Positions 2,316 to 32,210 of a stretch of DNA of 32,463 nucleotides are shown here, piece after piece (position 1 is the first letter of the stretch; the number at the start of each line of letters is the position of its first letter). The position numbers and the translations under genes were made by a program. The notes below the pieces were generated by a model. It worked only from the letters and a program-made list of their open reading frames with translations. It did no database searches and was not told where the DNA came from. Source of the DNA: Gammaproteobacteria bacterium. GTDB lineage: Bacteria; Pseudomonadota; Gammaproteobacteria; GCA-001735895. The stretch lies in the NCBI GenBank assembly GCA_014382695.1, contig JACNJF010000088.1, forward strand, positions 14,009 through 46,471, in the 5' to 3' direction.

Positions 2316-2402
2316 AATAGAAGCACGAATGTTAGAACCACCTGAAACCACTCTTTTCTCTAACGCTTAAACGCTAATGTAGCACGCCAGCAAAAATTAT
2401 TT

Positions 2403-6265: not shown

Positions 6266-6344
6266 ATCGTTGCTATCTCCGGAATTCTGATTATCTGTTT
6301 CTAATGTTCTATTTCTATTTATTGAACTTAACTGTTCAATTTAA

Positions 6345-9777: not shown

Positions 9778-9782
9778 AGCGG

Positions 9783-14439: not shown

Positions 14440-14454
14440 AACAAAGTCAGGGGA

Positions 14455-15577: not shown

Positions 15578-15593
15578 AGCAAGTATAGTGCCA
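15578..15593 (-). promoter_or_regulatory. Sigma54 (-24/-12) promoter for the - strand triheme cytochrome genes
   Basis: Reverse complement reads TGGCAC-TATAC-TTGCT, a perfect match to TGGCAC-N5-TTGCW; 125 nt upstream of ATG at 15453. Confidence 0.8.
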
Positions 15594-15608: not shown

Positions 15609-15624
15609 TGGTACTGTATTTGCT
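15609..15624 (+). promoter_or_regulatory. Sigma54 (-24/-12) promoter for the NHL lipoprotein gene
   Basis: TGGTAC-TGTAT-TTGCT, one mismatch to consensus, exact GG-N10-GC spacing, 46 nt before ATG 15671; divergent from the 15578-15593 site. Confidence 0.7.
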
Positions 15625-15670: not shown

Positions 15671-16771
15671 ATGCAACTTACTAAATTCAGTACCGCCCTG
15701 TACCTCGCATTCATCCTGACCCTGATCAATGGATTGAGTGGATGTGCATCCACGCCCGATCAGGCAGAGTTCGTCGCCCCGGTATTCCCTCCTCCACCCG
15801 ATGAAGCTCGGTTTTACTACCAGCAAACATTGATTAGTAGCGCGGACGTAGAAATAGAAGATAAAGACTCTGCATTTAAACGCTTTGTAACCGGCAGCAC
15901 GCGATCAGGAACCGGCATGGGAAAACCATTTGGCGTGACCGTCCACAAGGGCCGAGTTTTTGTATCCGACACCCTGAAAAGAATGGTCATGGCATTCGAC
16001 AAACAGAATGGAAAGTTTATTGAAATAGGCGCCTCATCCCCCGGTGAGCTATTCAAACCGATGGGGCTGGATGTCGATAGCCAGGGCACATTATACGTAT
16101 GCGATTCCAGCATGAAACATGTTGTGGTGTACGATCGTGATGGCAAATACCTGCGCACCATTGGAAGCCGCGAAATGTTCAGTAGACCGGCAGGGCTGAC
16201 AGTCAATCCGGAAGGAACCAGAGTATTCGTTGTAGACACGGGCGGAGTTAAAAGCGACTGGCACCGTGTCGTCGTATTTGACGCCTTAACCGGCGAGTTT
16301 CTCTACAATATCTCAAAACGCGGCAATGAAGAAGGTGAACTCAATCTCCCCAGAGAAGCGACCATCGCCAGCGATGGCAACCTGTATGTGGTCGACGGGG
16401 GTAACTTTCGCATCCAGGTATTTACCCAGCAAGGTGAGTTTTTAAGAACTTTCGGCACCATTGGGCGTCGAAGTGGACAGTTTTCCAGGCCCAAAGGTAT
16501 AGGCTCTGATGCAGACGGTAATATTTACGTTGCCGATGCCGCCTTTGGAAACTTCCAGATTTTTAATCCCGAAGGACAGCTATTACTGCCCATCGGACAG
16601 AGAAACAGTATATTTGGAGCCGCTAATTTCATGCTACCTTCGGGCCTTGCAGTGGATGAAGACGGCAGGGTCTATATGGTTGACCAGTACTTCAAGAAGG
16701 TCGACATTTTCAGGCCTGCTTCTGTGGCTGAAAACCAGGGATTCTTTGCCCCTAAACCCGAGGCAAAGTAA
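15671..16771 (+). CDS. NHL-repeat beta-propeller lipoprotein
   Basis: Start moved from the track's TTG (15647) to ATG 15671: MQLTKFSTALYLAFILTLINGLSGC (lipobox LSGC). NHL repeats such as 'FSRPAGLTVNPEGTRVFVVDTG' and 'FSRPKGIGSDADGNIYVADAAFGNFQIFNPEGQ'. Confidence 0.88.
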   Translation: MQLTKFSTALYLAFILTLINGLSGCASTPDQAEFVAPVFPPPPDEARFYYQQTLISSADVEIEDKDSAFKRFVTGSTRSGTGMGKPFGVTVHKGRVFVSDTLKRMVMAFDKQNGKFIEIGASSPGELFKPMGLDVDSQGTLYVCDSSMKHVVVYDRDGKYLRTIGSREMFSRPAGLTVNPEGTRVFVVDTGGVKSDWHRVVVFDALTGEFLYNISKRGNEEGELNLPREATIASDGNLYVVDGGNFRIQVFTQQGEFLRTFGTIGRRSGQFSRPKGIGSDADGNIYVADAAFGNFQIFNPEGQLLLPIGQRNSIFGAANFMLPSGLAVDEDGRVYMVDQYFKKVDIFRPASVAENQGFFAPKPEAK

Positions 16772-16865
16772 TGTACATCTATGACCCGACAGAAATCATG
16801 AATAGATTAATCGGCTCATTATTTATTTCCACAAACTTAATCATTACATTCATCAGGTAACCTCC

Positions 16866-17525
16866 ATGAATAAAAAATCAAGCAAGCTGCAAACGCTATC
16901 CAGATCACTTCTACTGCTATCCCTGATCCAACTGTCTGCCTGCTCGGACGAAGCACCCACCGTTGCTGCAGCGGAATCGACTCCACCCCCCGTACAGAAA
17001 GCAGCACCCGTCGCCCCCGCAACTCAAACTCAAGCTACTGCCACCACACCAGCCGCTAACAATGGCATCGTTAAAAGCGTACAGCATCTGGGCGGCTACT
17101 CTTATATCGAAACAGACATCAATGGCAGCATCTTCTGGATAGCTTCAGCGATTACCTCGATTAAACCCGATGACAAGATTGCCTGGAATGATTACGCCAT
17201 CATGAGGAATTTCACCAGCAAGTCGATGAACCGTACTTTTGATCAAATATTATTTGTCGACAAAGTAGTACCAGCCGCTGCGATGATAGCCACAGGACAC
17301 ACCGGCATAGTCACTGAAGCTATGGATGCCGCAGGTTATAGCTATATCCAGGTTGAAGAAAAGGGTAAAAAGATATGGCTTGCAGCCCCTGTTAGCAAAG
17401 TCACGCCCGGTCAAAGCATCAGCTGGAACGGATCGTCACCGATGCATAACTTTTCCAGCCAGTCGCTGAACCGGACATTCGATGAGATATTTTTCGTCGG
17501 CGCAATCCAGGTTAATCAGATTTAG
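16866..17525 (+). CDS. Lipoprotein with two tandem NrfJ-like domains
   Basis: 219 aa; lipobox 'IQLSAC'; two copies of the unit G.V......GYSYI......(I/K)(F/I)W.A......K...I.W.....M.NF.S.S(M/L)NRTFD.I.FV. Confidence 0.7.
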   Translation: MNKKSSKLQTLSRSLLLLSLIQLSACSDEAPTVAAAESTPPPVQKAAPVAPATQTQATATTPAANNGIVKSVQHLGGYSYIETDINGSIFWIASAITSIKPDDKIAWNDYAIMRNFTSKSMNRTFDQILFVDKVVPAAAMIATGHTGIVTEAMDAAGYSYIQVEEKGKKIWLAAPVSKVTPGQSISWNGSSPMHNFSSQSLNRTFDEIFFVGAIQVNQI

Positions 17526-17589
17526 ATTCGTTACCCCTGCTCAGACTAATTTGAACAGCAGAGAACCGACTGCCATAAAATATAGACCA

Positions 17590-17619
17590 CCCTGCATAAG
17601 CCTGCCAGGCTATGCAGGG
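17590..17619 (+). terminator. Strong stem-loop downstream of the NrfJ-like gene (terminator/3' stabiliser candidate, no U-tract)
   Basis: CCCTGCAT-A-AGCCT-GCC-AGGCT-ATGCAGGG: 13 paired bases interrupted by a single bulged A. Confidence 0.5.
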
Positions 17620-18362
17620 TCTAACCCATTTTCAGAATACATAAGACGACGACCAGGTTGCTCGCCCCTCATTTGCAAACTTATTCCAACACAAATGTTC
17701 GAGTTCCAGAATAACCGCTTTATTCAACTTTCCAGATTATGGGAAATTAACTTAAGTTACTATAACTATGATCCGCCATTACCTCTTAGACAGAAACTGC
17801 ATAACCGTAACGGAAGCAGGCTTTTAAGCCTTTTGGTGCGCCGCGCTATCAATCACACAACAGGTGCCATGATTAAATTCAACTCAATCAACCCTAATTG
17901 ACACGTCCCGTGAACAAAAACAAGGCCAAAACAGCGATGCAGTTCACATATTTTTAATTAAAATTCTGTATGTATTTAATTAGATCTAAAGCTTATTAAT
18001 GTATTTTATCCATTAATTTATAAAATATTAATAACCAGGTGATGTTTTACAATCTTATTCAAACCAACCAAAGCCCTGCTTGAGAAAATATCATCCCATC
18101 CAGCTCAATTTTTTTCCTAAAAACATTCGATTAATTGAATCTTTTCTATAACGACACCACTCGATCAGTACAGAACAGGCCCGCCTATCCTGTTTATGGG
18201 AATTATAGATCACTTTTATTCCCGCTTATGAGAGCGCCGGTCATCGTGAAGCCCCTACACGCCCTCAATCTGGCCCTATATTTAGCGTTAGAGTTAAATA
18301 TTTCCATGCATTTTAATGAGGTTATTCACAATTACCTTCTTTTTTAGCACCCCATTCAATCA

Positions 18363-18378
18363 TGGCACGATAGTTGCT
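18363..18378 (+). promoter_or_regulatory. Sigma54 (-24/-12) promoter of the tetraheme cytochrome gene
   Basis: TGGCAC-GATAG-TTGCT, perfect match to TGGCAC-N5-TTGCW, 80 nt before ATG 18459. Confidence 0.85.
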
Positions 18379-18458
18379 CACTAATAACTCAAGGTAAGTT
18401 GATAGCGATATCAGCATATTTACTAAAATTTTTTCATTTTCCACTAGAGGTATTTACT

Positions 18459-19289
18459 ATGAAAACCGGAAAGTTAATTTTCACCGCAAGCAAGCTTGCA
18501 TTAGCAGCCAGTCTGCTAATGACGGCAGGCAGCGCAATGGCAGCAGGTATTGCCGACACCAGACATAACTTAGGTTCTGGTGGCGGAGTTAATGCAGTGA
18601 ACTCATTTAGCGGCACCGCTGAGATTTGCGTATTCTGTCATACTCCTCATGGAGCAGATACTTCTGCGTCTGTTCCACTCTGGAACAAAACACTGGCAGC
18701 TCCAGCTTCCTATACAACCTACGATACATTAGGAACAAGCAGCCTTGACGGTGCAACCGCTCCTGTAGGTTCAGTGTCTTTAGCCTGTCTTTCCTGTCAC
18801 GATGGTAGCCAGGCAATGGATACCGTATTGAATGCTCCTGGCTCAGGTGCAACAGTCGCTAGTTATTCAGCGGGCACCTGGACAGGTCCTGCAGCAACTA
18901 CGACTCCTGTTGGCGCGATCACAAACAGTATCGTTAATCTGGGCAAAGATCTGTCCAATGATCACCCTGTTGGTATCCAATATGGTGGCGGTAACTTAAC
19001 AGCCGCAACACCTGCTGCTGCAACTCGTGACCCAGACTTCAAGACTGCATCAAACCAGATCATCAATGGCAACACTATTTGGTGGGTTGATACTGAAGCC
19101 ACTCCTAACGGAACACGTCAAAAAACGGATATGCAGCTGTACACTCGTACTGTAGCGGCTATCGATGGCGGTGCTTCTCAGCCTTTCGTTGAGTGCGCTA
19201 GTTGCCACGATCCACATACTACAAACTCTACCTTCCTGCGCGTTTCTAATGCCGGAAGTGCTGTGTGCCTGGCCTGTCACACCAAGTAA
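18459..19289 (+). CDS. OmcE-like tetraheme c-type cytochrome, candidate filament-forming (nanowire) subunit
   Basis: ATG 18459 (RBS-like agagg) gives MKTGKLIFTASKLALAASLLMTAGSAMAA^GIADTRHN. Four motifs CVFCH, CLSCH, CASCH, CLACH. The mature region has exactly four other His (TRHN, TPHG, NDHP, DPHT), as expected for four bis-His hemes. Family features 'CVFCHTPHGA..PLWNK', 'CLSCHDG', 'L.NDHP', 'CASCHDPH', C-terminal 'NAGSAVCLACHTK'. Confidence 0.82.
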   Translation: MKTGKLIFTASKLALAASLLMTAGSAMAAGIADTRHNLGSGGGVNAVNSFSGTAEICVFCHTPHGADTSASVPLWNKTLAAPASYTTYDTLGTSSLDGATAPVGSVSLACLSCHDGSQAMDTVLNAPGSGATVASYSAGTWTGPAATTTPVGAITNSIVNLGKDLSNDHPVGIQYGGGNLTAATPAAATRDPDFKTASNQIINGNTIWWVDTEATPNGTRQKTDMQLYTRTVAAIDGGASQPFVECASCHDPHTTNSTFLRVSNAGSAVCLACHTK

Positions 19290-19316
19290 ACTAATGTAAC
19301 ATAAGGCAGTTAAACC

Positions 19317-19353
19317 AGCCCTTCTCTGAGAAATCATTGAAGGGCTTTTTTTT
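19317..19353 (+). terminator. Rho-independent terminator after the tetraheme cytochrome gene
   Basis: AGCCCTTC - 14 nt loop - GAAGGGCT followed by a run of 8 T. Confidence 0.85.
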
Positions 19354-19678
19354 GGCCGCAATAAAGATTCCGGCTCAATTTTTTATATTTCCCAAACTGA
19401 ACTTTTAAATTTTGTCAAAATCTTAAAGCTATAAAATTCAACATATTTTATATTTTTAAGCAAAAAAATGAGTCAGGCTAATAAATTATCAATATATACC
19501 AATTAGAAACTCAAACCTTTGATTTTACTTATGAAATATTTTCAGTAATAACAATGGTAAGCTTACATTTTAGATACCACTGACAGACTAAATCGAATAA
19601 AATGAAAAATGTAAATTCTGATCTTCGAACGGTCGATGCGGACTCTCTCAGAACTGTAAAAACTAAAAAGGCTTTATT

Positions 19679-20674
19679 ATGCGGTTAAAATCTTTCTTCA
19701 AAATCATAACTCTTTATCTGCCATTTATACTTTTCGGTAGCTTCTCACTCCCAGTACTTGGTGCAGAGTCCCCCTCCAACGATCAGGTCTTCGCACGCAT
19801 CAACGATAGAACAATCCTGTACGGTGAGTTTATGGAAATTTTCCGTGGTGCGGTGCGCTATAAATATTACCATGGCGAAGTTCCCGCCAAAGAACTGGAA
19901 GAGTTTCAACTACAGGTTGGTAAAGACATCGTCGAGCAGGAACTGCTGCATCAGGACGCCATCAAACAGGGGCTCAAACCTAACAACAGTAAAATCCAGG
20001 CTGGGCTTGAAAAATTTGACGAAAAATACCGCAATGATCCGGAATGGAAAGTCCAGAAGGATAAAGTTCTGCCGAATATGATTAATAACTTAAATCGGCA
20101 AAATCTGATTGAACAAATGAAAATCAAGATTAAGTCGATCCAGGCACCTGACCAGAAAGACGTCCGCAACTACTACCTACAACATCCGGAAAAATTTACG
20201 GAGCCGAAACGGGTATGGGTATCGGTGTTACTACTATCTGTCCCGCCATCCTCTATGAGTCAAACCTGGATCGATGCTGAAAAAGCGGCCCAGCAGTTTA
20301 AGCAACGCATTGAAAACGGGGAAGCTTTCGCCGACATTGCAAAACAGTATTCAGGACACCCGAGCGCGGTTAATGGCGGAGATCTTGGCTATCTTCATCA
20401 GGGCATGCTGGAAGGTGACTCCAATATTGCAGTAAACAACCTTAAAGTAGACGAAATCAGCAACCCGGTGCGCGTACTCGAAGGCTATACCCTTTTTCGC
20501 CTGAATGGTGTTCATCCTGAAAAATTAAAACCTTTTGAAGAAGTTAGTCAGCGCGCTGAAGATCTTCTATACCGAGAGCTGCAGGATAAGAGCTGGGAGG
20601 ACTACGTAACAAACCTGAAAAAATCAGCCGATATATTTATTAATGTTGATTTATACGCCAAGTCCAATGATTAA
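19679..20674 (+). CDS. Periplasmic SurA/PpiC-type peptidyl-prolyl cis-trans isomerase
   Basis: 331 aa; signal peptide; SurA_N-like helical region; parvulin core 'AQQFKQRIENGEAFADIAKQYSGHPSAVNGGDLGYLHQGML...VDEISNPVRVLEGYTLFRLNG'. Confidence 0.9.
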   Translation: MRLKSFFKIITLYLPFILFGSFSLPVLGAESPSNDQVFARINDRTILYGEFMEIFRGAVRYKYYHGEVPAKELEEFQLQVGKDIVEQELLHQDAIKQGLKPNNSKIQAGLEKFDEKYRNDPEWKVQKDKVLPNMINNLNRQNLIEQMKIKIKSIQAPDQKDVRNYYLQHPEKFTEPKRVWVSVLLLSVPPSSMSQTWIDAEKAAQQFKQRIENGEAFADIAKQYSGHPSAVNGGDLGYLHQGMLEGDSNIAVNNLKVDEISNPVRVLEGYTLFRLNGVHPEKLKPFEEVSQRAEDLLYRELQDKSWEDYVTNLKKSADIFINVDLYAKSND

Positions 20675-20679
20675 CAGTC

Positions 20680-22449
20680 GTGCATGCGCATAATCGACTA
20701 CTCCCCTGTTTAATAAAAAGCATAATCCTGATCATGCTGCTAATACAGGCCAGCCAAGCGACTACCCAGGTCCCGGTACGAGTCTATGGTGACTTAACAT
20801 CAGTCTATAGCGAGCGTGAGTTTGGGGACGGCAATAGCAGCTCCAAAGGCTGGTTAAACATCGCCACGATCAATGCCAATAGTTATATTTGGCAACCCTG
20901 GTTTGCACTCATCAGCGGCGGGATTTCATTTGCCACGAATGAACAGCAGTTTAACGAAGAAGAGCCAACTCGAAGTGAGTTTATCAATGCTAAATTCCAG
21001 TTAAATCTATTCCCGAGTAGTCGCTTTCCTTTTACCCTTTACGCCAGTCAGAGTCAGAATGATTTAACCGACAAACTCATCAATCGCACCACCACCAGTA
21101 CCATCATCGGACTCCGCCAGCAATATGACAGCCTGGACGGTCGGGAATCCTATAACGCCAATATTGAACAGACCACGCGCGAGGATATCGCTCAGGAAAC
21201 CTTTTTGAGCGAGATCTTTAACTTCTCTGCAAGAAAAAGAATGGATGAAAACGATATTTCTGGCAGTGTTGATTACGCCACTACCGAGTCGCCAAAGAAT
21301 AACGACGCCACCAACTATTCGGTCACCGGTCGCCACTCGTACTCAGGCAACCGAAATTTAAGCTGGGAAAACCTGGCTTCAGCCACCCAGTCTCACAGTG
21401 ACTTCATTAATAATACGGTGGATACGGTTGAAAATCAGTTTTCCAGTTTTTTATCCTGGCGCCCGGAGGATAATAATAAACTCAACGTAACGGGAAACTT
21501 TCTAATCTCAGATTTCGAACAAACGACAGAACAGAAAGACCCTGCGTTACTGGATACCCAGGTTGCCAGAACCGATCGTCCATTCATAAACATTAATCAG
21601 GGATTGATTTATAACTATAGCCCACGAGTCACGCTAACTCAGTCAGCCAATGTGAGTCGTAGCCAGATTGGGGATGAAAGTCAGATAGCCGCCTCAGAAT
21701 CTGGCAGTGCAGGATACAATTCTGAATCGGTCAAAACGTCTCAGGGTCTGTATAACTGGAATAGTTCCGCCAGCGTCAATCATACGCATGGAGATAGCAT
21801 AGATTCTGCCACCAGTCTTTCTACTCAGCTGGGGCACTCGCTATCCAGGGACTATTTACTAACCCCGGAAAATAAGATTCAAACCAGTTTATCCCAGTCG
21901 ATCGGCTACAGCACAGGAACTTCGCGCAGAGACTCCACCAGCCTCAATCACTCTGCCACCATAAACTGGTCCGAATCGACCTTCCTGAATAAGACTTCGA
22001 TTCGCTTAACCGCATCAGACTCGCGTAGCAGCTCGTTGGATGAGTCGAAATTTCAATTATTGAACCTTCAGATTACCAATGACTATCGCTACGGCAGAAA
22101 TACCACCCTGCTGGCCAGCATGACCCTGCAGAAAAGCTGGATTGAAACCAGCGGGGATACCAGCACATCCCAGAATAGTAATGGCCAGCTGAATCTGATT
22201 AAAACCCGCGTCTTTAATACCCCAGAGTTGACCTACAAATCCAAATTAAAATTTAGTGCACAGAGCTCCACCAACAATAGGGACTCGGTTGCAGCCAGTG
22301 ATTCATCGAATGATAATTCATGGGAAAATGAACTGGTTTATCGAGTAGGACTTTTTGAGTCACGCTTTAAACTAGATTATGTTAAGAATGATGATCAATA
22401 TGACAGATTAATATTAATACAACTAACAAGAAACTTTGGCGATTTATAA
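20680..22449 (+). CDS. Putative outer-membrane beta-barrel protein (conduit/porin candidate)
   Basis: 589 aa from a GTG start, signal-like N-terminus. Long series of short amphipathic alternating strands rich in Ser/Thr/Asn and aromatic residues, e.g. 'VTLTQSANVSRSQIG', 'SWENLASATQSHSDF'; ends 'YDRLILIQLTRNFGDL'. Confidence 0.72.
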   Translation: MHAHNRLLPCLIKSIILIMLLIQASQATTQVPVRVYGDLTSVYSEREFGDGNSSSKGWLNIATINANSYIWQPWFALISGGISFATNEQQFNEEEPTRSEFINAKFQLNLFPSSRFPFTLYASQSQNDLTDKLINRTTTSTIIGLRQQYDSLDGRESYNANIEQTTREDIAQETFLSEIFNFSARKRMDENDISGSVDYATTESPKNNDATNYSVTGRHSYSGNRNLSWENLASATQSHSDFINNTVDTVENQFSSFLSWRPEDNNKLNVTGNFLISDFEQTTEQKDPALLDTQVARTDRPFININQGLIYNYSPRVTLTQSANVSRSQIGDESQIAASESGSAGYNSESVKTSQGLYNWNSSASVNHTHGDSIDSATSLSTQLGHSLSRDYLLTPENKIQTSLSQSIGYSTGTSRRDSTSLNHSATINWSESTFLNKTSIRLTASDSRSSSLDESKFQLLNLQITNDYRYGRNTTLLASMTLQKSWIETSGDTSTSQNSNGQLNLIKTRVFNTPELTYKSKLKFSAQSSTNNRDSVAASDSSNDNSWENELVYRVGLFESRFKLDYVKNDDQYDRLILIQLTRNFGDL

Positions 22450-22463
22450 CAGGAGCATAAACT

Positions 22464-22883
22464 ATGAGTATTAAAATATTGGCATTATCGGTTTTGTTAC
22501 CAATAATAATGTTTTTTTCCACACTTTCACAGGCCGAATACGGTGATGTAGTGATCAATAACTACTCTGAAGAAGCGGGTATGAGACCCGTCATTTTCCC
22601 TCACTGGTTCCATAGAATTCGTTTTCGTTGCAAGGTTTGTCACGCCGACCTTGGCTTCGAATTCAAGGCTGGTGGCAACGATATCAACATGCTCAAGATC
22701 ATCGATGGTGAGTACTGTGGTGCCTGTCATAACGGGGAAATCGCATGGTCTGTCGAGAGCTGTAATCTATGTCATTCGGCAAAACCCGGAACTGAGACAC
22801 AGGTGCATGAAAGCACCATATCAAAACTGTTAACCAACCAGAAACCCGCTGCAGCTAGCACCACAGGAGGCACAAAGAAATGA
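22464..22883 (+). CDS. c7-type triheme cytochrome (type 1)
   Basis: 139 aa; signal peptide; CKVCH, CGACH, CNLCH; 'GMRPVIFPHWFHRIRFRCKVCH'; resembles the c(7)-type/'nanowire triheme' domain. Confidence 0.85.
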   Translation: MSIKILALSVLLPIIMFFSTLSQAEYGDVVINNYSEEAGMRPVIFPHWFHRIRFRCKVCHADLGFEFKAGGNDINMLKIIDGEYCGACHNGEIAWSVESCNLCHSAKPGTETQVHESTISKLLTNQKPAAASTTGGTKK

Positions 22884-23845
22884 GTATTCAAAAACCAGGC
22901 TATAAGTCGCTTTATCTCTACCTGTCTCTGAGCATGGCACCTTTATTCTTGGCCTTTACCCCCCTGCAGCCAGCCTATGCTGAGGAAATTAAAAACGGAA
23001 AACAGGTATACGAAATCGGCTGTGCTGGATGTCACGCATCAGGCGTTCTTGACGCACCCAAGTTTGGCAATAACGCCGACTGGCTTAAACGTGAGCAACA
23101 GGGATTTGAAACGCTGGTCAAGCATGCCCTGAACGGTTTCAATAACATGCCCGCGAAAGGCGGTAACCCGGCCTATAAAAATGAAGAAATCATAGCGACC
23201 GTTGCCTATATGCTGTCCGAGGCCGGTTTCCCAAACTACGCTGATAGAACCGGGGTAAAAGCGGTTACCACAGCCTCCACTCCGAAACCGGCTGAAAAAC
23301 CGGCTACTGTGGCACCGAAAAGCAAACCAGCAACGGCCACCAAGTCCTATAAAAATACCAACCAGTTTAATCGCCTGATGGCACCCTCTTCCGAATGGAA
23401 CCCACCGCAGTCGAAAGATGGCATCCATGACCCGGAAAACGATGGTACAGAGATGTTACAGAAGCCAAGGGTCGCCTTTGAGCCTTTAGCCAATTCAACT
23501 TCAGGCAACCGGGTAGACTGGGTAAAAGCCTTGCATAATGGTGAAATAAACCCTCGCTACGATCGCGTTAATCCCGATGCAATGCCGGTAGTTATGGATC
23601 TAAATATTGTTCGTGAGGTCAAAGGATCAATGCCGAATGTTGTCTATCCGCATAAACAGCATACGGAATGGCTGGACTGTTCGAATTGTCATCCTGCTAT
23701 TTTTATTCCACAAAAAGGGGCTAATCAGATTAGTATGGCTTCGATACTACTCGGGCAGAAATGCGGGGTATGCCATGGTAAAGTAGCTTTCCCTGTGTCT
23801 GAATGTCGGAAATGTCACTCGCAGGCCAAGACAGCAAAAAAATAA
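22880..23845 (+). CDS. Fusion of monoheme cytochrome c (c5-like) and c7-type triheme domain (type 2)
   Basis: 321 aa; CAGCH in a class I domain ('NNMPAKGGNPAYKNEEIIATVAYML'), Lys/Pro/Ala-rich linker, then CSNCH, CGVCH, CRKCH. ATGA coupling to the previous gene. Confidence 0.85.
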   Translation: MSIQKPGYKSLYLYLSLSMAPLFLAFTPLQPAYAEEIKNGKQVYEIGCAGCHASGVLDAPKFGNNADWLKREQQGFETLVKHALNGFNNMPAKGGNPAYKNEEIIATVAYMLSEAGFPNYADRTGVKAVTTASTPKPAEKPATVAPKSKPATATKSYKNTNQFNRLMAPSSEWNPPQSKDGIHDPENDGTEMLQKPRVAFEPLANSTSGNRVDWVKALHNGEINPRYDRVNPDAMPVVMDLNIVREVKGSMPNVVYPHKQHTEWLDCSNCHPAIFIPQKGANQISMASILLGQKCGVCHGKVAFPVSECRKCHSQAKTAKK

Positions 23846-23875
23846 CGACTACATAAATTACAGGTACGGAACGTC

Positions 23876-24745
23876 ATGAGTCATTTAACATTTATACTAA
23901 CAGGCTGGCTTTTTATAAGCACAGCATTTGCACAGGGTCTGGACACAGTAAATATCAATTCAGTGGACTTTGGTGAAGGAAATAACCAGCTGTCCATGAA
24001 ATTTACGATGGCTCAGCAAATGTTAAAATCCAGCCTGTCTAAATATAATGAATCGGACAATAGCACGGATGCTAGCCATTTAATGGAAAAGGCACAGGCT
24101 AATTTTAGCCTTGCCATTAACCGCGCACATGAAAAAAACTGGCTGGAATGCAATGCCATTATCGACTCGGTAATCCGGGATCTCACAACGGCCTCTCAAA
24201 TATTAAGTAAGAAAGCCTTTAATCAGAATGTCTACCGGGAAAATCTTAAACGGGTCGAAGCGTTCATTTTGCCCGAATGGTCAGAGGATATTTCACAGCA
24301 GGACCGGGATAGCCTCGATAAAGAGTCAAAGGAAATTGATAAACTGATCGAACAGGCAAAATTGTTTGCATCCAATGAAGAGTTTGAGCAAGGAACTTCA
24401 GAACTGTATAAAGCCTACCGTCTTAAGTCCGCTCTGCTGCAGAAAAACAAACATAAAAGTACCATTATTTATGGCTATTTATTTGATACCCCGGAAGAGG
24501 AATACGAGTATATGCTTAGCCGTAACCAGCACTTTCAGGGGCTTGTTGAAAAAGTATTAAACGAAAAAGCCTTTGATGAACAAACCAGCAGTTTAATCAA
24601 TGTCTACCTGGATAAAAGTAAGTCAGGTACCTTTCAGGCTTATTCCTTTCAGTTGAATAACCAGCATAAGGAAGCCATTCAGGTGCTCGATCAATCGATA
24701 CAGGATCTGTCGAACGCACTCAAGGTAATGGGAATAAGAATTTAG
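23876..24745 (+). CDS. Secreted coiled-coil/helical protein of unknown function, copy A
   Basis: 289 aa; signal peptide; mostly helical; C-terminal region with 'PEEEYEYMLSRNQHFQGLVEKVL' is paralogous to the next ORF; no CXXCH. Confidence 0.7.
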   Translation: MSHLTFILTGWLFISTAFAQGLDTVNINSVDFGEGNNQLSMKFTMAQQMLKSSLSKYNESDNSTDASHLMEKAQANFSLAINRAHEKNWLECNAIIDSVIRDLTTASQILSKKAFNQNVYRENLKRVEAFILPEWSEDISQQDRDSLDKESKEIDKLIEQAKLFASNEEFEQGTSELYKAYRLKSALLQKNKHKSTIIYGYLFDTPEEEYEYMLSRNQHFQGLVEKVLNEKAFDEQTSSLINVYLDKSKSGTFQAYSFQLNNQHKEAIQVLDQSIQDLSNALKVMGIRI

Positions 24746-24763
24746 ATAATTGGGATAATCACA

Positions 24764-25615
24764 ATGTACACACTCCGTTATATTCTGTTGACTTCACTAT
24801 TGTTGATCAGCACTCAGGTTTTGTCCGATTCTTCCGAGCTCGACCCTCGACTGGGCTCGGTAGATAAATTAATTAACACCTCTTCAGGTGCACAACAGGT
24901 TCTGAAAAGTGCCGACAATGAAGTGAAGGCTTTGCACAAACTGGCAAAAGGTCTGTTTAACCAGGCCCGGAATGAATACAAGATTGGCAATGATGAGGAA
25001 GCCAAAGCGCTGATCAATCAGTCCACTAAAACCATGTTTAAGGCGATACGACTGGCGACTCCCAGCTCACTCAATAACGCAAAACTCAAGGCCGACTACG
25101 ACAAAAGAAAAGAGTCGATAAATACCCTGTCCAGCGCGTTTAATCGCATCGCAGATGAAAAGGAAAAATGCGATTGCAAGGATAAAACCAATGAGCAGAT
25201 TAATACTCTGGTGATCCAGGCAGATAAATTACTGAAGGACGGACAGCACGTAAACGCCAGGGTTGAACTTGATAAAGCCTATCAAATACTAAAGGTTTCG
25301 ATTGAATCCTTACGCGGTGGTCAGACTCTGGTCAGAAGTCTCAATTTCGCCAACCCGGAAGAAGAGTATCAATACGAACTGGATAGAAATCACACCCATA
25401 AAATGCTCATCAAGCTATTACTGGATGACCGGGCTAGCTCGGAATATACCCAGAAAAAAGTTGAAGAATTCACCAATAACGCCAATGCTTTCAGAGAAAA
25501 GGCAGAGATTTCGGCTCTGCAGAAGCGTTTTGAAGAAGCTATTCAGCAACTGGAAAGCTCCACCAAAGAACTGGTCAGAGCGATTCGCAGTGCTGGAATT
25601 TATATTCCCGGATAA
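24764..25615 (+). CDS. Secreted coiled-coil/helical protein of unknown function, copy B
   Basis: 283 aa; signal peptide; 'PEEEYQYELDRNHTHKMLIKLLL' paralogous to copy A; contains a 'KCDCKD' CXC motif absent from copy A. Confidence 0.7.
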   Translation: MYTLRYILLTSLLLISTQVLSDSSELDPRLGSVDKLINTSSGAQQVLKSADNEVKALHKLAKGLFNQARNEYKIGNDEEAKALINQSTKTMFKAIRLATPSSLNNAKLKADYDKRKESINTLSSAFNRIADEKEKCDCKDKTNEQINTLVIQADKLLKDGQHVNARVELDKAYQILKVSIESLRGGQTLVRSLNFANPEEEYQYELDRNHTHKMLIKLLLDDRASSEYTQKKVEEFTNNANAFREKAEISALQKRFEEAIQQLESSTKELVRAIRSAGIYIPG

Positions 25616-25627
25616 GCCGTATTTAGC

Positions 25628-26194
25628 ATGAACAAAAAGCTCATCCTAGGCATTTTACTGTTAACACTTTCAGCGGCCCTGTTTGCCCAGAAAGCAAAAT
25701 GGGTGGCACTAAAAAATGATCAATTGCATGATCCGCAGTCACCAGCCATCCATGTCTTACAGCAACCGGCAGAAGCCCTCAGTCTGCTGCCTCCAGACTA
25801 TACCGGTAATCTGGTTTCATGGGTTGATGCTTTACAGGAGCACTACATTGAGCCAAGATCAACTCTGTTTTCAGACACTCAGGTGAATACCCTGGAAATG
25901 GATATAGTGATGGGCAATACCGGCGAAATGCCGATGGTGATGTTTCCACATACCCCGCATACCGAATGGCTGGATTGCAAAAATTGCCACGACGTTATTT
26001 TCAAGGAAAAAGTAGGGGCAAACCCGATCAATATGTTTGCCATTTTAAATGGTGAATATTGTGGCCGTTGCCATGGTGCAGTCGCCTTTCCATTGACCGA
26101 ATGTAACCGCTGCCATAGCGTGGCCAGAAATGTCTTCACCGGAAAACCGGGGGTGCAGCCAAAAGGTTTCATCCAGAACAGAAAGCCCCGGTAA
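25628..26194 (+). CDS. c7-type triheme cytochrome (type 2, without the monoheme domain)
   Basis: 188 aa; signal peptide; CKNCH, CGRCH, CNRCH. 'FPHTPHTEWLDCKNCH...GANPINM..ILNGEYCGRCHGAVAFPLTECNRCHS' parallels the C-terminus of the 22880 ORF. Confidence 0.85.
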   Translation: MNKKLILGILLLTLSAALFAQKAKWVALKNDQLHDPQSPAIHVLQQPAEALSLLPPDYTGNLVSWVDALQEHYIEPRSTLFSDTQVNTLEMDIVMGNTGEMPMVMFPHTPHTEWLDCKNCHDVIFKEKVGANPINMFAILNGEYCGRCHGAVAFPLTECNRCHSVARNVFTGKPGVQPKGFIQNRKPR

Positions 26195-26209
26195 GCCATA
26201 CAGACCTGT

Positions 26210-26620
26210 ATGAAAAACAAAACCACACATTCACCAGAATCTTTAGTCAGACGAATCATACTAAGCCTGTCTCTGGTATTTTTTATCAGTTTCTCAGCCC
26301 CCGTAGTTGCCGAGTATGGTGACGTCGTGATCAACAAACGTGCAGAAAAAGAAGGCATGCGACCGGTTATATTCCCGCACTGGTTCCACCGCATTCGCTT
26401 TCGTTGCAAAGTCTGTCATAACGAACTGGGGTTCAAGATGCGCGCCGGAGGCAATGATATTACGATGGGCGAAATTACCGAGGGTAAATACTGCGGCATG
26501 TGCCACAATGGTGAAATATCCTGGACCATCGAAAACTGTGATCTATGCCATTCCGGCTTACCCGGCCTGAAAAGTGCCATTCATGGTAGTAACGAAACAT
26601 CAGGACCAGGAAGATGGTAA
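26210..26620 (+). CDS. c7-type triheme cytochrome (type 1), paralog of the 22464 ORF
   Basis: 136 aa; CKVCH, CGMCH, CDLCH; shares the exact 22-residue stretch GMRPVIFPHWFHRIRFRCKVCH with the 22464 ORF. Confidence 0.87.
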   Translation: MKNKTTHSPESLVRRIILSLSLVFFISFSAPVVAEYGDVVINKRAEKEGMRPVIFPHWFHRIRFRCKVCHNELGFKMRAGGNDITMGEITEGKYCGMCHNGEISWTIENCDLCHSGLPGLKSAIHGSNETSGPGRW

Positions 26621-27696
26621 TCAACACAATTAAATTTTTACTGCTTGTTAGCACGCTGCTAAGCGTATTGATGGGCTGCGCTACCACACCGGACAAGCTC
26701 TTATTCAGCATGCCCTCCAGCACTCAGGCTCAGCCAGAGCAGCAGATGATATGGCCAGATCCACCGCAGACACCCCGCTACCAGTATATCGGCGATTTAC
26801 GCGGTGAATCCAACCTGGTTAAGGACGAAAAAAAGAAAGGTAGCCTGATATCGCGCTTCTTCTCAGCACTGGTCGGACTCGATAATGAATCCATCCCGCT
26901 GGTAGATTTGATCCGTCCACAACAGGGCACGATCGATCGACAGGGTAGAATTTATGTGGCAGACCCTGGCAAACAGGCGGTGTATGTGTTCGATGAAAAA
27001 GTGTCAGAGTTTTTTATCTGGAATGAAGACACTTTGAATATTCCTTTTAAAAGCCCGGTGGGGATCGTCAGCACCGACGACAGCATCCTGGTCACTGATT
27101 CAGAGCAGGGACTGGTGTATATTTTGAATCTGCAGGGGCAGCTCCAAAATACGCTCGGCAGTGGCATCCTAAAAAGACCCACGGGCATAGCGTTTGACCC
27201 GATTCAGCAGCGTGTATTCATCAGCGATACTAGTGAGGACAATATAAAAATATTTGACCTGCAGGGAAAGCTGCTTAGCACTATCGGTAGCAGAGGTGCA
27301 CAACCGGGAGAGTTTAATCGCCCCACTTTCCTCCAGTTTCACAAGAATAAACTATACATTGCGGATTCGCTTAATACTCGAGTTCAGGTCATTAACCAGC
27401 AAAATGGTAACATTCAGGTTATCGGAGAACGCGGTCTGTATATCGGAAACTTCAGTCGCCCCAAAGGCATCGCGATTGATTCCGATGACAATATCTACGT
27501 GACCGAAAGCTATTACGATTATGTATTAATTTATAACGCTGAGGGCGAATTTTTGATGTCGATTGGAGGCTCAGGCGATCAGCCTGGCGAATTTTCCCAG
27601 CCTACGGGTGTGTGGATAGACCAACAGGACAGACTGTTTGTTTCCGATATGCTAAACAGCCGGGTATCTATATTTCAATATCTAGGAGGCCAATAA
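26614..27696 (+). CDS. NHL-repeat beta-propeller lipoprotein, second copy
   Basis: 360 aa; lipobox 'LMGC'; NHL blades 'FNRPTFLQFHKNKLYIADSLNTRVQVINQQNG', 'FSRPKGIAIDSDDNIYVTESYYDYVLIYNAEGE', 'FSQPTGVWIDQQDRLFVSDMLNSRVSIF'. Confidence 0.88.
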   Translation: MVINTIKFLLLVSTLLSVLMGCATTPDKLLFSMPSSTQAQPEQQMIWPDPPQTPRYQYIGDLRGESNLVKDEKKKGSLISRFFSALVGLDNESIPLVDLIRPQQGTIDRQGRIYVADPGKQAVYVFDEKVSEFFIWNEDTLNIPFKSPVGIVSTDDSILVTDSEQGLVYILNLQGQLQNTLGSGILKRPTGIAFDPIQQRVFISDTSEDNIKIFDLQGKLLSTIGSRGAQPGEFNRPTFLQFHKNKLYIADSLNTRVQVINQQNGNIQVIGERGLYIGNFSRPKGIAIDSDDNIYVTESYYDYVLIYNAEGEFLMSIGGSGDQPGEFSQPTGVWIDQQDRLFVSDMLNSRVSIFQYLGGQ

Positions 27697-30104
27697 TGCA
27701 AATATTTCAGCTGCTCAAAAAACAATTTCGCCAGGCCTCTTTAACCCTTGGCATGACGGCCCTGCTCGGCACTACAGCTCTGTATGCCGCAGATCGGATC
27801 TCTGATATTGCCAATACCAAGCATAACTTTTCAACTTCTGGTAGTGGCACCGTTAAAGCCACCACTGAAAGTCAAATTTGTGTTTTCTGTCATACCCCGC
27901 ATGCGGCGGAAGCCTTTCCCCAATCGCCACTCTGGAACCGTAAACTATCCGGTGAAACTTATACGCCCTACACCTCTAATTCGATTGATGCGAATGATAT
28001 TGCCGCAACGCCGGGGGGTAGCTCCAAACTCTGTCTGTCCTGCCATGATGGCACCATTGCTATTGGTAATGTCAACGTTGCCAACGGCCAGGCTAATGTC
28101 AGCATTACCCTGACCGGCACCGGTGCTGGCGGTATAATGCCATCAGGAGCCGGTGACACGACTGGTTTTACACGCAAAATCGGCACTAATCTGACCAACG
28201 ATCATCCGATATCTTTTACCTATAACACTACTCTGGCCACAGCAGATGGTGAGTTAAGAAATCCCGCCACTTCGGCCCATATCGGCAACCGCTCTCCCGG
28301 TAACACACCACTGGTACCGCTGGAAGCCAATCAGGTACAGTGTACCAGCTGCCATGACCCGCATATCCGCGACGTGGACATCACTAAAAACATTAAATTT
28401 CTGCGCCTGCACCGGTTTCAGGAAGCAACCCCTACCGGTGGCAACTTCAGCGATGCGAATGATATTATCTGTCTCGCCTGCCACGATAAACTGGGCCAGG
28501 CCTGGGCCACATCCGCTCACGCAGATCCACTTGCGGCGAATGAAACCTATAATACTGCTGCCGCAGCTTTACGTGAGTTCCCCGCCAATCAGCCGGTCTG
28601 GAAAGCCTCCTGCCTGAACTGCCATGACACCCATACCGTTCAGGGCGCTCGCCGCTTGTTACGCGAAGGCACCGACAGTGCATCAACACCGAAAACCGGT
28701 GGCAATGCAGCGCTGGAAGAAGCCTGCTATACCTGCCACTCCGCCAATGGCAATGTATTAACCGGCCAGGGTGGAGCCGGATTTGAAGTGCCGAATGTGC
28801 GCACCGACTTTACCAGCCTGACCCACATGCCTATCACCACCGCGGATCAGCCCCAGCCGACTGAAACCCACGATGTGTTGAATGCTGACCTACTCGAGGA
28901 TAAGGCCAAATTCAACAACGCAAATCGCCATGTTGAATGCACCGACTGCCATAACCCGCACCGGGTAACCAAGAACCGACTGTTCAATAACACCGGCAAT
29001 ACCGCAGCAGCCACACACAATCACGCAGCAGGACATACCAATATTGCATCCGGTGCGTTACGCGGAACGACCGGAGTAGAGCCATCTTATGGTGCCGCCA
29101 ACTTCATCCCAACCAATCTACCGCTGCTGTACACCGTGAAATCAGGTGATGGCGGCGCTGCAGCCAGTACTACCGTTGGCAGTGCCTATGTCACGCGTGA
29201 GTACCAGATCTGCCTCAAATGCCATTCCGATTATGCCTACGGTAATACACCGCCGAATCTGGGGAGCTCAGGTGGAAATACTTCATCCGGCACCAATGGT
29301 TTGACACAGTACACCAATCAGGCGATGGAGTTCCAGGCACCCGCCACTCATAGAGGGCAAACCACCACAACCAATTCTGGAGCAGGCGCCAACTGGAGCA
29401 CCAACAATCACAGATCCTGGCATCCCGTGATGGGCAACACCGGACGTACCCCGGCTATTCGCGATGCAGCCGCAGATAACTGGCTAAGCCCATTCAATGG
29501 TGCTGCCGATATTGGTAACCAGACCATGTACTGCTCAGACTGCCATGGTAACGATACGGCGAGTGGAACTTCAACGCCCAGTGGCGGTGAAAACGGCAAC
29601 CCCTGGGGACCGCATGGCTCCAATAACAACTTTGTGCTGAAGGGCGCCTGGAGTAGCACCACCGGAACCGGGAATCAGAATCACCTGTGTTTCAAATGTC
29701 ATGACTACAATGATTACGCAACCAGAAATGGTGGTGCTAGTGGTTTTGGTGGTCCCAAGGACTCTAACCTGCATCAGTTCCATGCCGACAAAATCGGCCG
29801 TATGCGCTGCACCTGGTGTCATGCCGCGATTCCGCACGGCTGGAAAAACAAGGCATTCCTGGTCAATCTGAACGATGTCGGGCCGGAGGTCGGACTCACC
29901 GCCGGCACCCAGGTCAAAAACAATATCAGAACCCCCTATAACCGCCCACCGTATTACCTCAACGCGGTACTTAAGGTGCGCAACTTTGCCACCAGTGGTA
30001 ACTGGTCTGAAAACAACTGTGGATCGAGCGGAGCACCGGGTAACGGTCAGAGCGGAAGAGACTGGATGAGAGATAGTAACGAAAGTTGTGAAAATCTACC
30101 TTAA
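27696..30104 (+). CDS. 11-heme c-type cytochrome with OmcE-like four-heme N-terminal module
   Basis: Start reassigned to ATG 27696 (RBS aggagg; TAATG overlap), giving signal peptide MQIFQLLKKQFRQASLTLGMTALLGTTALYA. Eleven CXXCH: CVFCH, CLSCH, CTSCH, CLACH, CLNCH, CYTCH, CTDCH, CLKCH, CSDCH, CFKCH, CTWCH. Confidence 0.88.
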   Translation: MQIFQLLKKQFRQASLTLGMTALLGTTALYAADRISDIANTKHNFSTSGSGTVKATTESQICVFCHTPHAAEAFPQSPLWNRKLSGETYTPYTSNSIDANDIAATPGGSSKLCLSCHDGTIAIGNVNVANGQANVSITLTGTGAGGIMPSGAGDTTGFTRKIGTNLTNDHPISFTYNTTLATADGELRNPATSAHIGNRSPGNTPLVPLEANQVQCTSCHDPHIRDVDITKNIKFLRLHRFQEATPTGGNFSDANDIICLACHDKLGQAWATSAHADPLAANETYNTAAAALREFPANQPVWKASCLNCHDTHTVQGARRLLREGTDSASTPKTGGNAALEEACYTCHSANGNVLTGQGGAGFEVPNVRTDFTSLTHMPITTADQPQPTETHDVLNADLLEDKAKFNNANRHVECTDCHNPHRVTKNRLFNNTGNTAAATHNHAAGHTNIASGALRGTTGVEPSYGAANFIPTNLPLLYTVKSGDGGAAASTTVGSAYVTREYQICLKCHSDYAYGNTPPNLGSSGGNTSSGTNGLTQYTNQAMEFQAPATHRGQTTTTNSGAGANWSTNNHRSWHPVMGNTGRTPAIRDAAADNWLSPFNGAADIGNQTMYCSDCHGNDTASGTSTPSGGENGNPWGPHGSNNNFVLKGAWSSTTGTGNQNHLCFKCHDYNDYATRNGGASGFGGPKDSNLHQFHADKIGRMRCTWCHAAIPHGWKNKAFLVNLNDVGPEVGLTAGTQVKNNIRTPYNRPPYYLNAVLKVRNFATSGNWSENNCGSSGAPGNGQSGRDWMRDSNESCENLP

Positions 30105-31071
30105 CTCTGAGGGCCGGGGAATTAGCGGAGTCTTAGCGTCCCCGCTACTCACACTGGCTTCGATCATCGCCCTGTTTGCATCTATTTCGCTTTACCCCTA
30201 TCTAGCGGGGAGAACCCAGCTCACCCTGCTGCTGATACCGACAGTGGCATTGATGATAAATTTTCTTGCCCTACTCTTTGTGCGTGGCGCTTTTTCAGCC
30301 AAACCTGCACTTCTATTATTCCATTTCTGTCTTTTTTCTCTGGTCATTCTGGCCATCATTGGGCAGCTAACCTACCTGAAAGCCACCCTTGAACTCAGCA
30401 GCATGGAAGCTTTCGACGGCAGGCTGGAGAATGTAGAGGCTGGACTATTTCACGATTATCAGCTGGATCGCGAAAAATTCTCTAATCTGGGGTTTAGCAT
30501 CAGTTACCGTCCGGGGATTAAGCGTGACAGCACAGTTAATCGCATCCAGCTGGAAACGCCTGGTCAAAAACTACGGGTGGTAGAAATTGGCGATCATATC
30601 CCGCTGGTACTTGGCCACTACCGACTGTACACCACGCATAACAAGGGTTATTCACCGCTATTCCGCTGGTTTCCAGACGATAACAGCCCTTCCCAGCTTG
30701 GCAGTGTGCATCTGCCCGCCTATCCCATAAATGAATATAAACAGGCGCGCGAATGGACGCCACCGGGCTCTCAGCAACAGCTGTGGACCATGCTGGTGAT
30801 GGAAGAGGATGTACTTCCGGAAAATCGTGAATTCAATTTCAGTATCCCCTACCGGCACCATCTGGTAATACGCATCGGTGAAGATCGAAACGTGCTTAGA
30901 GTGGGGGAAGAAATTCGACTCGACTCAGGTATTTTACGCTATGAATCTCTGACCAGCTGGATGGGGTATAAAGTAGACTATGACTGGACGCGCCCCTGGT
31001 TACTGGCAACCTGCCTGATCGGGCTAGTCAGCCTGAGCCTGTACTACCTGAATAAACTCCGTCGGCTGTAA
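30088..31071 (+). CDS. resB: ResB-like cytochrome c biogenesis protein (GTG start, overlaps upstream gene)
   Basis: 327 aa; N-terminal TM cluster, large periplasmic domain, C-terminal TM after 'LTSWMGYKVDYDWTRPWLLATCLIGLVSL', the ResB/Ccs1 arrangement. Confidence 0.7.
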   Translation: MKIYLNSEGRGISGVLASPLLTLASIIALFASISLYPYLAGRTQLTLLLIPTVALMINFLALLFVRGAFSAKPALLLFHFCLFSLVILAIIGQLTYLKATLELSSMEAFDGRLENVEAGLFHDYQLDREKFSNLGFSISYRPGIKRDSTVNRIQLETPGQKLRVVEIGDHIPLVLGHYRLYTTHNKGYSPLFRWFPDDNSPSQLGSVHLPAYPINEYKQAREWTPPGSQQQLWTMLVMEEDVLPENREFNFSIPYRHHLVIRIGEDRNVLRVGEEIRLDSGILRYESLTSWMGYKVDYDWTRPWLLATCLIGLVSLSLYYLNKLRRL

Positions 31072-31192
31072 ATTACCAGTTACGAGAATATAATTTTCCC
31101 ACTTTCTCGCTTTCGGGACAGCCACGAGCCTTCATTTAAATTACACCCACTAATCATCACGTTTTAACTCCATTATCCAGCCCAATTTTTTA

Positions 31193-31208
31193 TGGCTCAA
31201 TTATTGCA
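31193..31208 (+). promoter_or_regulatory. Sigma54 (-24/-12) promoter of the pentaheme cytochrome gene
   Basis: TGGCTC-AATTA-TTGCA, one mismatch to TGGCAC-N5-TTGCW, exact GG-N10-GC spacing, 75 nt before ATG 31284 (similar to the tetraheme gene). Confidence 0.7.
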
Positions 31209-31283
31209 TAATTAAAGACAATAATTTTAAATTTGGCCCCAGTAATTAAAGCCATCACCCAACACACAGCTGGAAAGGATCCG

Positions 31284-32210
31284 ATGAATCATAAAATCCT
31301 GAAATATTTATTTAAGCACCTCACCGTTTTAGCCTGCCTGTCTACGACGGCACTTTATGCAGCGGGCGATCTGCCTACTAAATTTAGCAATCAGGGCGGC
31401 ATTAAAAATACTCGTCACAACCTGACTCAAAACACCCTGCCAAACAATGGCGGCGGTAATATGAACTCATCCAGAAATGACTATGGGCAGGTTTGTGTGT
31501 ATTGCCATACTCCACACGGTGCAAATACAACCGTTAACCTGCCGCTCTGGAACCGGACCATCAATGCCAATACCTATACCACTTACGACACGCTGAACAC
31601 CTCAACACTAACTTCAGATGTAGCCCAACCCGGCATCAACTCGCTATCCTGCCTGTCCTGTCATGACGGCACATTGGCGGTTGACTCGATCATCAACATG
31701 CCCGGTTCAAATGGCTACAGTGCCAGTCAACAGACCACACAAAGTGATGCGTTTCTGAATCAATGGGCGACGGTATTTGGTGGTAACGCTACCTCAACCC
31801 ACGCAGGCCTGAGTGCCGACGGTACCGGATGTCTGGCCTGTCACTCGACTACAGCACTCGCAGTAATCGGCGGTACAGCCACCGACTTTAGACTGTTTGC
31901 GATTGGGACCGACCTGACCAATGACCATCCAGTCGGGATAGCCATGCCAGCAACAGGCGCGGGCACCGATTTTAATACACCGACTGCAACCCTTGCCAGT
32001 ATCAGCTGGTTCGATAATGATGCTGACAGTCGACCCGACAGCAATGAGATTCGCTTTTACAATACAGGTTCCGGCCCCCGCGTAGAATGCGCATCCTGTC
32101 ATGATCCACATGGTGTTTCACCTACTGGAATCGGTGGCACCATCAATGCCAGCTTCCTGCGCATCAATAATGCCGGTAGCGCGGTCTGCCTGACTTGCCA
32201 TGTGAAATAG
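31284..32210 (+). CDS. OmcE-like pentaheme c-type cytochrome, candidate alternative filament subunit
   Basis: ATG 31284 with RBS ggaaagga; signal peptide ending LYA-AGD; CVYCH, CLSCH, CLACH, CASCH, CLTCH. Same skeleton as the 18459 ORF (IKNTRHN, TPHGA, PLWNR, NDHPVGI, CASCHDPHG, FLRINNAGSAVCLTCHVK). Confidence 0.82.
   Translation: MNHKILKYLFKHLTVLACLSTTALYAAGDLPTKFSNQGGIKNTRHNLTQNTLPNNGGGNMNSSRNDYGQVCVYCHTPHGANTTVNLPLWNRTINANTYTTYDTLNTSTLTSDVAQPGINSLSCLSCHDGTLAVDSIINMPGSNGYSASQQTTQSDAFLNQWATVFGGNATSTHAGLSADGTGCLACHSTTALAVIGGTATDFRLFAIGTDLTNDHPVGIAMPATGAGTDFNTPTATLASISWFDNDADSRPDSNEIRFYNTGSGPRVECASCHDPHGVSPTGIGGTINASFLRINNAGSAVCLTCHVK

Follow-up and report, generated by a model that had tools for sequence, protein, structure and literature searches.

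An extended Uet gene cluster with a candidate OmcE-type filament cytochrome on a gammaproteobacterial contig

The subject of this analysis is a stretch of DNA of 32,463 nucleotides (the window) from a Gammaproteobacteria bacterium of the lineage GCA-001735895 (assembly GCA_014382695.1, contig JACNJF010000088.1, positions 14,009 to 46,471). The genes between positions 15671 and 32210 of the window almost certainly constitute an extended uetABCDEFGHIJ (undecaheme electron transfer) cluster. Its tetraheme cytochrome UetA is a clear relative of the filament-forming cytochrome OmcE, from which it follows that the bacterium probably builds wires; polymerization of UetA into an OmcE-type filament is given a probability of about 65%. 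A first-pass annotation had described the interval as a candidate for a complete locus encoding an extracellular cytochrome filament together with a conduit.

UetA and its relationship to OmcE

In a search of the PDB with the single sequence, UetA matched 7TFS, the OmcE filament of Geobacter sulfurreducens, with E=3.8e-25, and a profile of 59 sequences lowered this value to 3e-41. The aligned parts cover all CXXCH motifs, and four CXXCH histidines and four distal histidines are matched, as anticipated from the OmcE-like label in the first-pass annotation. The entry 9YUQ, a "putative multiheme cytochrome c" with 16 chains, was found with 3.7e-30 by the single sequence and 5e-40 by the profile. 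UetA possesses eight histidines in total, namely those of the four CXXCH motifs and H36, H64, H169, and H253; in an alignment of 80 sequences seven of them are invariant and H64 is present in 79. The eight conserved residues are, therefore, the exact number needed for four bis-histidine hemes, with none left over. In OmcE and OmcS, according to reviews, one heme is ligated by a histidine of the neighbouring subunit. An earlier published link between UetA and OmcE may exist.

Assignment of UetA to the OmcS family was considered and dismissed (E=0.29 by profile, short stretches around heme motifs only). In many betaproteobacterial loci a second, diverged tetraheme OmcE-like gene is located upstream of the gene for NHL1; in six aligned loci (L069, L076, L079, L084, L085, and L090) the distal ligand equivalent to H64 is replaced by glutamine (CHTPQ), and one heme of that protein would thus be without its usual in-chain ligand.

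Identity and distribution of the cluster

The published Uet components are an undecaheme cytochrome (UetJ), an extracellular tetraheme cytochrome (UetA), triheme cytochromes (UetDEG), a peptidylprolyl isomerase (UetB), NHL proteins (UetHI), and a porin (UetC) (PMC10734462). The cluster is documented in Ca. Tenderia electrophaga and Gallionella (PMC10734462, PMC5371394, PMC12575090), and the name, as cited in PMC12575090, was given in Tenderiales by Eddie et al. 2022. When Ca. Tenderia electrophaga grows on a cathode, its triheme genes rank with the highest expressed and are apparently cotranscribed with a tetratricopeptide repeat (TPR) gene, and triheme and undecaheme genes group in expression with the respiratory complexes (PMC5371394). 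In the present interval the tetraheme, isomerase, barrel, triheme, NHL, and undecaheme genes are all present together (Table 1). The earlier suggestion of an undescribed configuration does not hold, since the combination of prolyl isomerase, barrel, c7, TPR/coiled-coil, NHL, and undecaheme genes is that of the published cluster.

The UetA alignment, run against 84,980 species genomes, yielded 80 loci, mostly beta- and gammaproteobacterial, and this synteny search, which the first-pass annotation had proposed, revealed that the gene set is kept in most of these relatives. Since the 80 loci are the best matches to the UetA of the window, the linkage fractions, counted over loci with enough flanking sequence, describe its closer relatives only: uetA is accompanied by a prolyl isomerase gene in 66/75, a barrel in 67/71, c7 genes in 66/70, a UetF-like gene in 57/64, an NHL gene in 58/62, and an undecaheme gene in 43/56 cases. 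Further to the left, an NHL1 gene precedes uetA in 45/70 loci, and the divergent class I cytochrome genes do so in 38/59. A metagenome-assembled genome labelled Candidatus Tenderia (L062) encodes a UetA with 52% identity, plus isomerase, barrel, and c7 genes. UetA was not found in the plasmid collection.

Two genomes of the same genus carry a second, shorter, and diverged Uet-like cluster (L039:947-9196 and L040:311-8216) with a tetraheme gene, two c7 genes, an open reading frame of 670 amino acids, an NHL gene, and an 11-heme protein of about 600 amino acids. At two other loci (L043 and L051) an open reading frame with 18 CXXCH motifs and weak similarity to the OmcE family lies upstream of uetA, preceded by 8-, 7-, and 3-heme reading frames.

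Two further OmcE-like cytochromes

As expected from the first-pass annotation, cytochromes with paired CXXCH motifs are encoded at 18459, 27696, and 31284 (Pfam/NCBIfam). The gene at 27696 encodes UetJ, whose first 260 residues, including four CXXCH motifs, match 7TFS with 6.5e-22. All eight histidines of this module are invariant among 14 sequences, and seven more hemes follow. An OmcE-like head of this kind suggests a base or a cap for the filament; that UetJ would be the base is a tentative proposal, which we would not bet on at even odds. As far as the literature was searched, a complete OmcE-like module at the start of an undecaheme cytochrome is new.

The last gene, at 31284, had been listed as a tetraheme cytochrome; it has five CXXCH motifs. 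Homologues were detected at 1e-30 in 16 of 369 genomes of other Gammaproteobacteria, with the own genome included in the count, and have in common an insertion located after heme 2 and before the NDHP motif. In an alignment that includes a few four-heme relatives, the histidine of the extra CXXCH is kept in 14/16 and an extra upstream histidine in 13/16. By its sequence, the gene belongs to a conserved pentaheme OmcE-like family that is new as far as the literature was searched, no description of such a family having been found there; cable bacteria have a pentaheme family tied to archaeal nanowires, but that family is ExtKL-related and distinct from this one. In several genomes the pentaheme gene adjoins an NHL1-type gene and class I cytochromes, with no full Uet cluster within the stretch examined around it. 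At one locus (L030:15080-16010) it is split into two overlapping frames by a frameshift or an assembly error.

Transcription units and regulation

All open reading frames of the interval are on the plus strand, at the coordinates listed in the first-pass annotation, which had also called the genes mostly overlapping or tightly spaced. The shared orientation is correct, and the spacing is indeed tight from uetB through resB (-17 to +30 bp); the rest is interrupted by larger gaps on both sides of uetA (933 bp upstream and 389 bp downstream) and by one of 212 bp in front of the pentaheme gene. Because these gaps, with sigma-54-like sites and a terminator, split the locus, it is predicted to consist of several transcription units and not of one transcript.

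Directly 3' of the uetA stop codon there is a hairpin (AGCCCTTC..GAAGGGCT-TTTTTTTT, about -16.7 kcal/mol). It was spotted by eye, since the scan program does not allow for a loop of this length; the program's terminator scan and a sigma-70 site search of the window returned no more than chance. In 27/67 relatives the uetA-uetB gap likewise contains a hairpin with a T-run, the stem sequences differing, as against 0/67 shuffled sequences. A terminator at this position, new as far as the literature was searched, suggests a major subunit made in excess, for which it would be expected.

With the sigma-54 consensus TGGCAC-N5-TTGCW, two exact and four one-mismatch sites were found in the window, compared with 1.48 expected. 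Counted in a slightly different manner (at least 9 of 10 core bases, GG and GC fixed), there were six sites, five of which are intergenic, intergenic sequence making up 2,972 of about 31,190 bases. The five precede uetA, the NHL1 gene, the pentaheme gene, the divergent cytochrome operon, and the thioredoxin-kinase operon. Of the 85 loci compared, 55 have a site scoring at least 8/10 upstream of uetA, whereas simple base shuffles gave about 9.6 per 85. The NtrC-type activator shares 69-74% identity with its counterparts in relatives whose gene order agrees, and, together with the linked kinases, would act on these sigma-54-like sites. Intergenic sigma-54 sites before transcription units beside an NtrC-type activator are, as far as the literature was searched, new for this system.

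Gene order in relatives extends the conserved unit leftward past 15671 to about 1530. In the nearest relatives the leftward order, with small variations, is two class I cytochromes, a thioredoxin-like protein, one or more histidine kinases, the NtrC-type activator, and then a Sel1 protein, a monoheme cytochrome, two Reg_prop propellers, CcsA, and a TPR protein. The two Reg_prop propeller proteins of the window (4958-7469, minus strand) have 66-75% identity to those of relatives, where they adjoin the NtrC-type regulator.

Remaining components

The sequence motif TGYN6TGYCAY, a pattern for heme motifs, occurs 48 times in the whole window, with 2.9 occurrences expected by chance. The coordinates of the features are collected in Table 1.

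Table 1. Features in and beside the extended Uet cluster (window coordinates)
Feature	Position	Strand	Basis
CcsA/CcsB-type heme handling protein and TPR protein	1530..3017	+	PF01578 9.9e-21, TIGR03144 2.1e-31
NtrC-type sigma-54 activator (8398-9777) and two histidine kinases	8398..12526	-	PF00158 5.7e-68 with Response_reg
Two class I cytochromes, three CXXCH each, divergently transcribed	13453..15453	-	PF13442/PF00034
Sigma-54 site, divergent cytochrome operon	15578..15593	-	exact
Sigma-54-like site, NHL1	15609..15624	+	one mismatch
NHL1, six-bladed NHL-propeller lipoprotein, lipobox LSGC	15671..16771	+	PF01436 6.7e-26
Repeat lipoprotein, 2 copies of GYSYI..FDEIFFVG	16866..17525	+	kept in close relatives
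Sigma-54 (-24/-12) site TGGCACGATAGTTGCT upstream of uetA	18363..18378	+	exact match
UetA, tetraheme OmcE-family cytochrome, candidate filament subunit	18459..19289	+	PDB match, conserved histidines
Intrinsic terminator, 8-bp stem then T8	19317..19353	+	sequence; about -16.7 kcal/mol
UetB, exported SurA/PrsA-like PPIC prolyl isomerase	19679..20674	+	PF13145 1.8e-15, PF00639 5.9e-15
UetC, 28-strand outer-membrane beta-barrel (model)	20680..22449	+	AlphaFold
c7a, UetD-like triheme c7	22464..22883	+	TIGR04257 4.2e-18
UetE-like, class I monoheme domain fused to triheme c7	22880..23845	+	PF13442 5.2e-12, TIGR04257 4.8e-18
cc1, UetF-like exported helical protein	23876..24745	+	paralogue of cc2
cc2, UetF-like exported helical protein	24764..25615	+	weak TPR/YfdX matches; kept in relatives
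c7b, UetG-like triheme c7	25628..26194	+	TIGR04257 3.4e-17
c7c, fourth triheme c7	26210..26620	+	TIGR04257 2.4e-19
NHL2, UetH/I-like NHL-propeller lipoprotein	26614..27696	+	PF17170 3.9e-20, NHL 2e-19
UetJ, undecaheme cytochrome, N-terminal OmcE-like tetraheme module and seven hemes	27696..30104	+	11 CXXCH
Short ResB-like (System II) cytochrome c maturation protein	30088..31071	+	PF05140 via homologues
Sigma-54-like site, pentaheme gene	31193..31208	+	one mismatch
Pentaheme OmcE-like cytochrome, fifth heme in insertion	31284..32210	+	7TFS 1.6e-19

Most of the parts named in the first-pass annotation were recovered by Pfam and NCBIfam: the PPIC-type prolyl isomerase at 19679, the NHL-propeller lipoproteins at 15671 and 26614, and Cytochrome_C7/TIGR04257 domains in four proteins (22464, 22880, 25628, and 26210), TIGR04257 bearing the family name nanowire_3heme. 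c7c is 59% identical to c7a, and a fifth nanowire_3heme protein of 351 amino acids is encoded elsewhere in the genome (G000:C54, L008:6144-7199). In other genomes the NHL1-type gene adjoins a pentaheme OmcE-like gene. The presumed coiled-coil pair is present with both genes, cc1 and cc2, which have to be reclassified as paralogues of each other (26.6% identity, 3e-16) and occupy the position at which the Tenderia cluster has a single TPR-like gene. The repeat lipoprotein has no family in Pfam or NCBIfam.

The predicted barrel was borne out by an AlphaFold model of UetC from 44 sequences, with a predicted local distance difference test score (pLDDT) of 92.1 and 28 long strands. Foldseek returned general outer-membrane barrels, the top query template-modelling score (TM-score) among the 50 matches listed being 0.40 for MtrB (6r2q_B), and the UetC profile found no porin in the PDB, only a designed barrel at E=0.03. 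The model supports an outer-membrane barrel and points to no particular function.

The ResB-like maturation factor foreseen in the first-pass annotation is assigned through its homologues: 7/7 family members match PF05140 (best 4.9e-11), the window protein alone having E=0.31, and a PF05140 search of its own genome gave no match. The resB-like gene is contiguous with CcsA at L033, L096, and L110, and CcsA/TPR genes lie directly downstream of resB at L033 and L125.

To call the locus complete was too strong, since no quinone-facing inner-membrane component was identified within 15671-32210; the same applies to the claimed trans-envelope path, as the barrel could be a secretion channel. Elsewhere in the window (3589-4940, minus strand), a seven-CXXCH cytochrome adjoins a protein of 192 amino acids with two predicted transmembrane segments; the pair, absent at the same place in the relatives checked, is possibly an inner-membrane entry point for electrons.

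Proposed mechanism and alternative explanations

The extended Uet cluster, controlled by sigma-54 and the two-component system, would produce an OmcE-type filament and its outer-membrane base. UetA would be exported, loaded with four bis-histidine hemes by System II (ResB/CcsA), and folded with the aid of the prolyl isomerase UetB; the barrel UetC, with its 28 strands, would be its passage across the outer membrane, and polymerization would take place outside. UetJ would link the filament base to its seven-heme remainder and, via the c7 trihemes, to the periplasm, with the NHL propellers and the UetF-like pair as accessory assembly or scaffold parts. Order of export, polymerization, the role of UetJ, and the direction of electron flow are all inferred. 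The genome carries a cbb3 oxidase, dsrA, and a RuBisCO fragment, which is compatible with an electron-uptake chemolithotroph, as proposed for Tenderia, and does not decide the direction. An elaboration with two OmcE-type polymers, namely a UetA wire on the UetJ head as built-in first subunit and a pentaheme wire, appears rather improbable. In this elaboration the extra heme of the pentaheme cytochrome, in a surface insertion, would give side access to the heme chain, and one sigma-54 two-component system would switch on both polymers together.

Several points weigh against filament formation. Homology to a polymer is not proof of polymerization. The AlphaFold model of UetA without hemes reached a pLDDT of 58 and retrieved nothing with Foldseek, and because it is so poor, fold and interface gain no structural support from it. 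The terminator is missing from most loci in which uetA and uetB are very closely spaced.

Uet has so far been classed among the porin-cytochrome complexes, with UetA as its extracellular tetraheme protein (PMC10734462), and UetA might accordingly be a monomeric extracellular or surface protein docked on UetJ/UetC, as extracellular cytochromes are on MtrAB, a reading with which the query TM-score of the MtrB chain, the highest among the Foldseek matches listed, would agree. We consider this unlikely, as UetA is specifically OmcE-like and not MtrC-like, the terminator after its gene suggests an excess of UetA over the rest, and the presence of a dedicated isomerase and of NHL proteins recalls the osc set for nanowire assembly in Geobacter. 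Somewhat less unlikely is that UetC is a secretion channel and that UetC, the c7 proteins, and UetJ serve export and assembly of UetA, with electrons taking another conduit. The size of the modelled barrel and, as far as can be gathered from citing papers, the proposed action of OscE, OscF, and OscG in OmcS secretion in Geobacter (PMC13194489, PMC12977616) speak for such a channel, which is compatible with filaments and competes with the conduit half only; four trihemes and an 11-heme protein would, however, be an unlikely price for secretion alone, and the expression grouping of the Tenderia triheme and undecaheme genes with respiratory complexes (PMC5371394) argues against it. It is very improbable that all the cytochromes merely store or shuttle electrons within the periplasm and play no part outside the cell: c7 domains do typify periplasmic carriers, and signal peptides are no proof of surface export, but the barrel gene is linked to uetA in nearly all relatives and models as an outer-membrane protein, and the family of OmcE is one of surface filaments.

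If UetA polymerizes, cytochrome nanowires belong to a large beta- and gammaproteobacterial group of iron, sulfur, and cathode oxidizers, as well as to genera with named strains, among them Ramlibacter, Dechloromonas, Azoarcus, and Halomonas, and Uet would have to be regarded as a nanowire system. As to how a cytochrome filament is attached to the cell, UetJ is a concrete, testable candidate, and culturable relatives that carry the cluster, such as Dechloromonas hankyongensis and Ramlibacter alkalitolerans, make such testing practical.

Comparison with known systems

UetA resembles OmcE in being tetraheme, in the order of its motifs, and in the alignment of all eight ligand histidines; it is about 45 residues longer and a candidate filament subunit, not an established one. 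With the conduits MtrAB, PCC3, and PCC4 the cluster shares a large outer-membrane barrel encoded beside multiheme cytochromes, but UetC has no sequence match among PDB porins. Membership in the MtrAB type was examined and rejected, as no MtrA or MtrB family exceeded the cut-off in Pfam/NCBIfam.

In the osc (omcS-companion) operon of Geobacter, studied by Shen et al. in 2025, a prolyl isomerase reportedly folds the cytochrome, channel-like proteins secrete it, and a propeller protein sets the morphology. The operon, described here after papers citing that work (PMC13194489, PMC12977616), is an analogous assembly cluster. Prolyl isomerase, channel, and beta-propeller genes are likewise linked here, which fits the reading of these proteins as assembly factors in the first-pass annotation; the likeness is one of gene content, with the Geobacter set taken as the citing papers describe it, and osc serves the hexaheme OmcS, which has no significant similarity to UetA.

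Summarizing, the interval is best seen as an extended variant of the known Uet system, whose small cytochrome belongs, on good sequence evidence, to the OmcE filament family; filament formation is likely. It has in common with the clusters of Tenderia and Gallionella the tetraheme cytochrome, prolyl isomerase, barrel, trihemes, helical/TPR protein, NHL proteins, and undecaheme cytochrome. It differs from them by two UetF-like genes, four trihemes, one of which is fused to a monoheme domain, an extra upstream NHL lipoprotein and a repeat lipoprotein, linked ResB/CcsA, an added pentaheme OmcE-like gene, and a linked sigma-54 two-component system.

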